A program made the translations under genes and the position numbers. Shown one piece after another: positions 62,766 through 64,000 of a stretch of DNA of 64,000 nucleotides. This stretch comes from Halogranum rubrum. Its GTDB lineage: Archaea; Halobacteriota; Halobacteria; Halobacteriales; Haloferacaceae. Location of the stretch: positions 124,001-188,000 of the forward strand of contig NZ_FOTC01000001.1 in the NCBI RefSeq assembly GCF_900114455.1, given 5' to 3'. The stretch's first letter is position 1. Every line of letters starts with the position of its first letter. The notes below the pieces were generated by a model that was not told the DNA's origin, did no database searches, and worked only from the letters and a program-made list of their open reading frames with translations.

Positions 62766-64000
62766 TTAGCGTTCCTGTTCCTGCTCGACCGTGGTCGAGA
62801 GGTTGCCGTCGTCGCTGGTGACGGTGACGTCCTGGTCCATCTCGTCGTCGCCCGCACCGGAGTCGGTCTCGGAGTCGGCGGCGAAGCTCGCGTCGTCGCT
62901 CGAACCCGACATCGAAGCCTGGCTCTCGGCGCATTGGCTGTCCGTGCACATCGCCGATGCGGCGGTGTGTGCACCGTCAGACGAGGAACCGGTCTCGGCG
63001 TCGTGGGTCACGGAGGCGCCCTGCATCCCCATGCCACCGATGCCGTCAAAGCTGACCTGAACCTGCGTCGAGCTCGCGCTCTGTGACTGGCTCTGGTCGT
63101 TGTTCTCGCCGTCTTGGTCGCTCTCGGCGGACTGTTCGATGTTCTGCGTCTGGCTCTGGTCGACGTCGTCACCCTGGGCGTACTGGTGTGCCTCGGCCTC
63201 GGCATCCTGCGTCTGGCTCTGGTCGTTGCCGTAGCCCGATTGGGTCTGTTCGGCGTCTTGGTCGATGTCCTGTTCTTGGTCCTGAGTGATGTCGTCGCCG
63301 TGTGCGGCCTGGCTGGCGTCAGCGTCGGCGTCCTGGCTCTGGCTCTGGTCGTTGTGCACGCCCTCCTGGCTCTGCTCGGCGTCCTGGGTCACACCCTGGG
63401 ACTGCTCCTGGGAGTTGTCGTCGCCGGTGGCGATCTGTTCGGCGGATTCGGTGCTGTCCTGGGACTGGCTCTGGTCGTTGCCGTGGCCGTCCTGGTCCTG
63501 TTCTGCGTTCTGTTTGTTGCTCTGGGTCTGTTCTTGGCTGCTGTCCGTTCCGTCCTGGCTCTGGTAGGCGTCCTGGCTGGAGTCAGCGTCCTGGTCCTGG
63601 TCGTTGTGGACACCGGACTGGGTCTGGTCCTGCTCTTGGACTGCCTGTTCGCGCTGCTTCTGGTCGTTGTCGTCGCCGAACTGCTGCTGGTACTCGGACT
63701 GCTCGGCTTCGGCGCTCTGGTCCTGGCTGCTACCGGCTGCGTGCTGGGACTGGTCCTGCTTCTGTTCGACGGATTCGGTCTGGACCTGGGTGTTGTCCTC
63801 GCCTTCGAGGTACGCCGTCTGGTCCTGGTCGGAGGTTGCGCCCTGAGTCTGCTCGACGTACGCACCGGTCTGCGACTGCGTCTGGTCGGCCTCGGCGCTT
63901 TCCTTCTGGCGCTGTGCGTTGTCTTCGCCCGTCTGGCTGGCGAACTGGTTCTGTTCGGAGGATTCGCCCTGGAACTGCTCACCGGCGAGCGTCGACTGGC
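62766..64000 (-). CDS. Glutamine-rich acidic protein with 21-residue tandem repeats (5' end beyond window)
   Basis: The frame ends at TAA 62766 and stays open to the right edge, so at least 411 residues are present and the N-terminus is missing. The first ~310 visible residues are at least 14 tandem 21-residue units, each opening with G-(D/x)-(D/x)-N-D-Q-S-Q and continuing with Q, A, E and D in alternating positions (examples GYGNDQSQTQ, GDDNSQEQSQ, GVHNDQSQSQ). The units alternate between GDD-type and G-N-D-Q-type openings. The spacing Q-x-G-x-x-N-x(4-5)-Q recalls curlin repeats. The C-terminal ~100 residues are acidic and contain CTDSQC. Function is unknown; an extracellular amyloid-like or solenoid fibre is one option. 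Confidence 0.85.
   Translation of the reverse strand, partial: QSTLAGEQFQGESSEQNQFASQTGEDNAQRQKESAEADQTQSQTGAYVEQTQGATSDQDQTAYLEGEDNTQVQTESVEQKQDQSQHAAGSSQDQSAEAEQSEYQQQFGDDNDQKQREQAVQEQDQTQSGVHNDQDQDADSSQDAYQSQDGTDSSQEQTQSNKQNAEQDQDGHGNDQSQSQDSTESAEQIATGDDNSQEQSQGVTQDAEQSQEGVHNDQSQSQDADADASQAAHGDDITQDQEQDIDQDAEQTQSGYGNDQSQTQDAEAEAHQYAQGDDVDQSQTQNIEQSAESDQDGENNDQSQSQSASSTQVQVSFDGIGGMGMQGASVTHDAETGSSSDGAHTAASAMCTDSQCAESQASMSGSSDDASFAADSETDSGAGDDEMDQDVTVTSDDGNLSTTVEQEQER

Follow-up and report, generated by a model that had tools for sequence, protein, structure and literature searches.

The window, a 64,000-nucleotide stretch of the Halogranum rubrum genome, ends within a minus-strand gene that we call gene A. 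Positions 62766-64000 hold the 411 final codons (residues 269-678 and the stop) of a 678-residue ORF that is open at the window edge. Extension along the contig places its start 802 bases beyond the edge, at G000:C6:188802 (L001:5803). The whole gene (L001:3767-5803, contig G000:C6) encodes, after a putative export signal, repeats of 21 residues that have a super-period of 42, and then a 95-residue tail. Within the window, degenerate repeats (residues 269-289; 63936..63998, minus strand) precede a strict array of 14 contiguous units (residues 290-583; 63054..63935, minus strand) with the consensus Q-x-G-x-x-N-D-Q-x-Q-x-Q-x-A-x-Q-x-A-x-Q-x and a 42-residue alternation. More degenerate repeats extend upstream of the window as far as about residue 77. 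The earlier note had assigned repeats to the whole of 62766-64000. Their identity stands and the interval was slightly too long, as the tail (residues 584-678; 62769..63053, minus strand), which begins STQVQVSF, is non-repeat. A long plus-strand ORF opposite gene A, rich in Leu and Val, mirrors the Gln-rich frame and was set aside.

The N-terminus, RRGMRVISRLFVVAITMLVVSGSIVGAAGATSA, reads by eye as a basic start followed by a run of hydrophobic residues and, near residue 57, an AxA-type cleavage region, three features that make a signal peptide likely. Similar N-termini are seen by eye in the paralogues of gene A. Neither a stop nor a frameshift interrupts the frame beyond the window edge, and the export-signal-like N-terminus recovered there supports the secretion that the idea of an adhesin or a cell-wall fibre had implied. 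The C-terminal tail is common to a 334-aa paralogue in the same genome and to relatives in Halogranum amylolyticum. It is missing from a 587-aa paralogue, 87% identical to gene A (L069:9145-10908; G000:C8:609144-610892), which ends exactly at TQVQVSF, where the tail begins, which suggests that the tail is a separable module. It contains a conserved cysteine pair, MCTD(S/N/T)(Q/K)C (MCTDSQC in gene A; window 62899-62952, about residues 617-634), unusual in an otherwise Cys-free exported protein of a halophile. Two further short forms in this genome, of about 190-220 aa, end in SSSQTQVVYQG.

The periodicity of the array is strict. The earlier note had counted at least 14 unbroken units of exactly 21 residues, and 14 are indeed found at residues 290-583 (window 63935-63054). 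The irregular pair that it described, 23 + 19 residues totalling 42, is confirmed by the Gly-to-Gly spacing at residues 334-376. Autocorrelation in gene A reaches 0.40 at lag 42, 0.30 at lag 21 and 0.27 at lag 63, with a maximum of 0.176 in 300 shuffles. The alternation of unit types with a period of 42 residues is significant both in gene A (p=0.012, 10 units) and in a relative from another family, in genome G251 (p=0.0002, 22 units), so that the proposed higher-order period is borne out. The 21-residue register is retained across divergent genera despite sequence drift.

Ten columns of the 21-mer are fixed: 1 Q, 3 G, 6 N, 8 Q, 10 Q, 12 Q, 14 A, 16 Q, 18 A/Q and 20 Q. Variable acidic columns are interleaved with them; this alternation is unbroken for 18 residues, and its parity changes at a single point in each unit, G-x-x-N. 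The fixed columns, which we call inward, contain 72 Gln among 140 residues (51%), 25 Ala, 13 Gly and 10 Asn, with 5 of 140 charged. Outward columns are Asp or Glu at 65 of 154 positions (42%) and include 3 Gln. With the column assignment read from gene A itself and the substitutions counted between genes, dN/dS is 0.09 for inward and 0.44 for outward columns against the 87% identical paralogue, and 0.09 and 0.75, respectively, against the H. amylolyticum protein. Inward columns are under strong purifying selection (dN/dS about 0.09), and outward columns are relaxed (0.44-0.75). Column composition and dN/dS together support the earlier suggestion of buried-type polar columns alternating with acidic exposed ones. 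The Fourier power of Gln is 45 at period 2.1, 2.6 at 3.5 and 0.07 at 3.6; that only the first of these is a peak rules out a helix. The simplest reading of the array is a beta structure with Gln/Asn ladders inside and an acidic, salt-compatible outside.

The spacing of the repeats was said to resemble that of curlin, and several results agree. The minimal curli repeat is X6QXGX2NX10 (Dueholm 2012, PMC3521004), and Q.G..N occurs 12 times in gene A (2000 shuffles: mean 0.47, maximum 3). A profile made from E. coli K-12 CsgA and CsgB only prefers one identical register in four blocks, those of gene A, gene B (described below), one short form and a member of another family. Column permutation of these four blocks, on columns that had been picked by fitting the register, gives p values of 0.0016, 0.0056, 0.0016 and 0.015 (0.0016 for gene A). 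The raw curlin HMM score of the gene A repeats in the window (25.2) lies narrowly above 300 shuffles (22.4) and 300 column permutations (21.3), and that of a short paralogue (54.5) widely above both (11.7 and 11.8, 300 each). Once composition bias is corrected for, the window repeats score below zero (-32 bits) against the E. coli curlin HMM. Since the correction makes the scores vanish, database searches miss the relation to curlin.

Standard searches accordingly found no PF07012 match in gene A, gene B, P0001/P0002 or the genome as a whole. Pfam, NCBIfam and PHROGs gave nothing relevant for gene A or B, a PDB sequence search with gene A gave no match, and a profile-profile comparison of short two-unit alignments aligned one column, without a match. 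CsgG (PF03783) and CsgF (PF10614) were not found in this genome, nor was PF03783 in seven relatives, including both genomes with canonical curlins described below. This is as expected for an archaeal cell with a single membrane. Lacking a PF07012 match and detectable curli export genes, gene A does not encode a curli subunit by definition, and the likeness to curli in the earlier note does not extend to membership.

In the numbering of Sleutel, the gene A unit reads N-$-Q-$-Q-$-Q and Q-$-A-$-Q-$-Q. The inward Psi1/Psi2 positions of curli are occupied by A, I, V, L, F, S or T (Sleutel 2023, PMC10192328). In gene A, Gln fills both of the corresponding positions of motif b in every unit (14/14 and 14/14), and motif a has A/Q and Q there, a departure from the hydrophobic/S/T rule. 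As read from the sequence, the repeats of gene A are the curlin pattern with hydrophobic Psi residues swapped for Gln, and a mostly-Gln core is without close precedent among curli. Like CsgA and CsgB, gene A combines a putative export signal with tandem repeats, Q-x-G-x-x-N spacing, conserved inward Asn/Gln columns and inward/exposed alternation. Unlike them, it has mostly Gln at the Psi positions, is strongly acidic, falls below PF07012 detection, and has no CsgG or CsgF found in its genome. The repeat units also differ: 21 residues with one parity-breaking arc and a 42-residue super-period in gene A, about 22-23 residues with two arcs in curli.

Canonical curlins of other haloarchaea provide a bridge. 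PF07012 matches above cut-off were obtained in two genomes, at G196:C1:1329075-1329671 (L064:7052-7789) and at about G207:C2:945391 (L065:6885-7508), one of them with 125 bits (E=1e-36). Both proteins have an export-signal-like N-terminus and 19-residue repeats, NDADVDQRNKAFVDQDGKN, and both are matched by the profile of the Halogranum family (E about 1e-17). Scored with a profile built only on the repeats of the Halogranum short forms, one of them beats 300/300 shuffles and 300/300 column permutations, the other 300/300 and 299/300. The motifs N-D-A-D-x-x-Q and Q-x-G-x-x-N are shared between these repeats and those of the Halogranum short paralogues, NDADQEQKNDQYQESEQKGYK. The canonical curlins differ from gene A by their 19-residue unit, hydrophobic inward residues (V/A/F), and the lack of a visible B-type partner. 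Judged by sequence, the short forms, and gene A by way of them, are likely to be homologous to curlin, but no single uncorrected score proves it. Next after each of the two curlin genes, in the same orientation, comes a conserved gene for a 258-aa membrane protein with a hydrophobic N-terminus; CsgG was not found in either genome. Weak PF07012 matches in other haloarchaea (E 0.003-1) were discarded, as the best (L077) is unrelated by inspection and three more lack tandem curlin repeats. Canonical archaeal curlins are rare, as none turned up when 295 genomes sampled from the phylum were searched with PF07012. Among archaea, the 2012 curli survey noted just one protein whose curli-like repeats are regularly spaced (PMC3521004); one of these two may be that protein.

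Gene B (637 aa, L001:6263-8176), outside the window, is the neighbor of gene A on the same strand. Such same-strand A-B adjacency was found in six genomes (G000, G001, G099, G274, G115, and G251), with gaps of 13-556 bases and in either order, B-A or A-B. The B-type proteins consist of an N-terminal membrane helix, an acidic Ser/Asp spacer, and the same repeats; in those of G000, G001, and G251 a conserved beta block at the C-terminus, GGENQQQALAVQQVLVQSDGDVTVVL..., which is not of low complexity, occurs twice. Gene B itself has a long Thr/Pro-rich end devoid of a PGF-CTERM-like segment, two cysteines (ADCVGDCG) just beyond the membrane helix, and KKSKKSKK in the acidic spacer. By analogy with CsgB, it is possibly an anchor or nucleator, the A-B pair resembling CsgA/CsgB also in that a subunit and a related second subunit are encoded together.

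A family profile of short and medium forms, the one by which the A-B pairs were also located, matched 13/292 Halobacteria genomes from 8/77 genera, a patchy distribution, and gave no match in one congener. A scan of genome contigs found relatives only in H. amylolyticum (NZ_FODV01000049.1, within G001), scans of viral contigs with six queries found no relatives, and text searches of a literature collection found no description of the family. One short-form relative (L015, G001:C29:464399-467857), partly masked in its record, carries between signal and repeats a His/Asp/Lys-rich stretch, DKHHDYDDKKHHD, that is possibly metal-binding. In G251 (C1:641614-642888, L059), more family-like repeats with in-frame stops lie near two intact copies and are possibly decayed copies. 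A second haloarchaeal group, which may be a more distant branch, comprises large (about 880-1100 aa) secreted proteins whose related Glu/Gln repeats turn at GDDNEQ and have a period of either 24 or 47 residues (L060:5995-8634, L061:5513-8515, L063:5570-8386, L066:5415-8585, L067:5933-8944, and L068:7024-10317).

Two AlphaFold2 models of the repeats (304 residues with a 2-row alignment and 126 residues with 4 rows) are all-beta, with one long strand of 16-18 residues per unit and a turn at each G-x-x-N, at low confidence (pLDDT 48 and 52, pTM 0.33). Their alignment rows came from the window and one further locus, which limited the models. The beta content that the earlier note had proposed is reproduced, at a confidence too low to show a solenoid. 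Foldseek found no match for either model at E<=0.001, and its barrel and pore matches were discarded as artefacts of poor models. We lean towards a coil of 42 rather than 21 residues, as favored by the 18-residue continuous alternation, the 42-residue alternation of units (p=0.012; 0.0002 in G251), and the low-confidence models.

We infer that the product of gene A is exported and acidic and that it self-assembles, as a beta protein, on the haloarchaeal cell surface, using the curlin grammar with inward Gln and forming a fibre tethered by B; we give this reading a probability of about 0.5. Each 21-residue unit would be a beta segment whose alternate residues (Q, Q, Q, A, Q, A, Q, Q, G, N) point inward as stacked Gln/Asn ladders. 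The D/E/S/T residues in between would face outward and keep the surface hydrated at high salt, the chain turning at each G-x-x-N. A fibre or matrix strand would arise by end-to-end stacking of subunits, with B as its tether and perhaps its nucleator, a part that CsgB plays for CsgA. Since archaea have one membrane, a pore through an outer one would not be needed. The fold, the fibre assembly, the role of B, amyloid formation, and a function in biofilm or adhesion are all predictions of this reading. Counting against it are the missing PF07012 match, the negative bias-corrected curlin score, the fruitless profile-profile and Foldseek comparisons, the low model confidence, a Gln core without close precedent, permutation columns picked by fitting the register, and the patchiness of the family.

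Gene A might instead be exported without polymerizing, folded into either a beta sheet of long strands or a solenoid that is not amyloid, and serving as a monomeric stalk, adhesin, or cell-wall spacer, each 21-mer being a strand of 17-18 residues and a turn, two per coil or hairpin. The 18-residue unbroken in/out alternation with its sole parity break per unit at GxxN fits such a fold, as does the single long strand per unit in the AlphaFold models, and the 42-residue alternation would follow readily from odd units facing even ones. These models are of low confidence, however, canonical curlins are beta-solenoids too and yet polymerize, and the paired membrane-tethered relative B is left unexplained. 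We regard this alternative as a serious but clearly less probable one. A purely hydrating role, with the acidic, Gln-rich repeats as a disordered extracellular brush or linker whose periodicity is left over from tandem duplication, is unlikely. Low complexity, an excess of acidic residues (122 D+E vs 13 K+R in about 621 mature residues), the lack of a hydrophobic core, and low pLDDT would suit it. Disorder does not, however, account for purifying selection five- to eight-fold stronger on alternate columns, for a better curlin match with the real than with the permuted column order, or for a 21-residue register kept across divergent genera though the sequence drifted.

The acidic turns GDD/GED-N-D, which recur in most family members, raise the question of cation binding: turns such as GDDND and GEDND could bind Ca2+ or Mg2+ in a cation-dependent adhesive solenoid of RTX-like logic. 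This we consider improbable, as the unit is 21 and not 9 residues long, the GGxGxDxUx pattern and any Pfam match are absent, and many units carry GVHND or GYGND instead. A coiled coil, suggested by 21 being three heptads (3 x 7), was rejected as having next to no chance: the Fourier signal is strong at 2.1 and absent at 3.5, 3.6, or 7, autocorrelation at 7 and 14 is near background, hydrophobic a/d residues are almost lacking, and Gly and Asn occur in every unit.

The preferred reading, a self-assembling surface fibre, could be widened into a more speculative proposal, which we hold tentatively and at distinctly lower odds: haloarchaea may have their own class of curli-like functional amyloid. 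It would be a wide fibre with two 21-residue arms (42) per coil, Gln ladders for a hydrophobic core, and a membrane-anchored B, would dispense with Csg export, and would be derived from or ancestral to the canonical curlin repeats that survive in a few haloarchaea. The sheath of Methanospirillum hungatei is built of an amyloid-like archaeal surface protein (PMC10593813, PMC6242892), to which gene A would then be comparable. That sheath forms hoops around chains of methanogen cells, and its sequence comparison with gene A consists of the PDB search that gave no match. The biofilm matrix of Haloferax volcanii is Congo-red- and ThT-positive; the study that reported this did not identify the protein and suggested HVO_1403 (PMC4180959). 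Haloarchaeal biofilms may therefore contain amyloid, and the gene A family is known here from other haloarchaeal genomes. For the proteins behind such amyloid-like matrices, A-B is a concrete candidate gene pair. If the fold holds, a curli architecture maintained by Gln ladders and acidic faces that replace the hydrophobic core would offer a testable rule for amyloid at high salt, and curli-type proteins would exist in archaea, where an outer-membrane pore is unnecessary.
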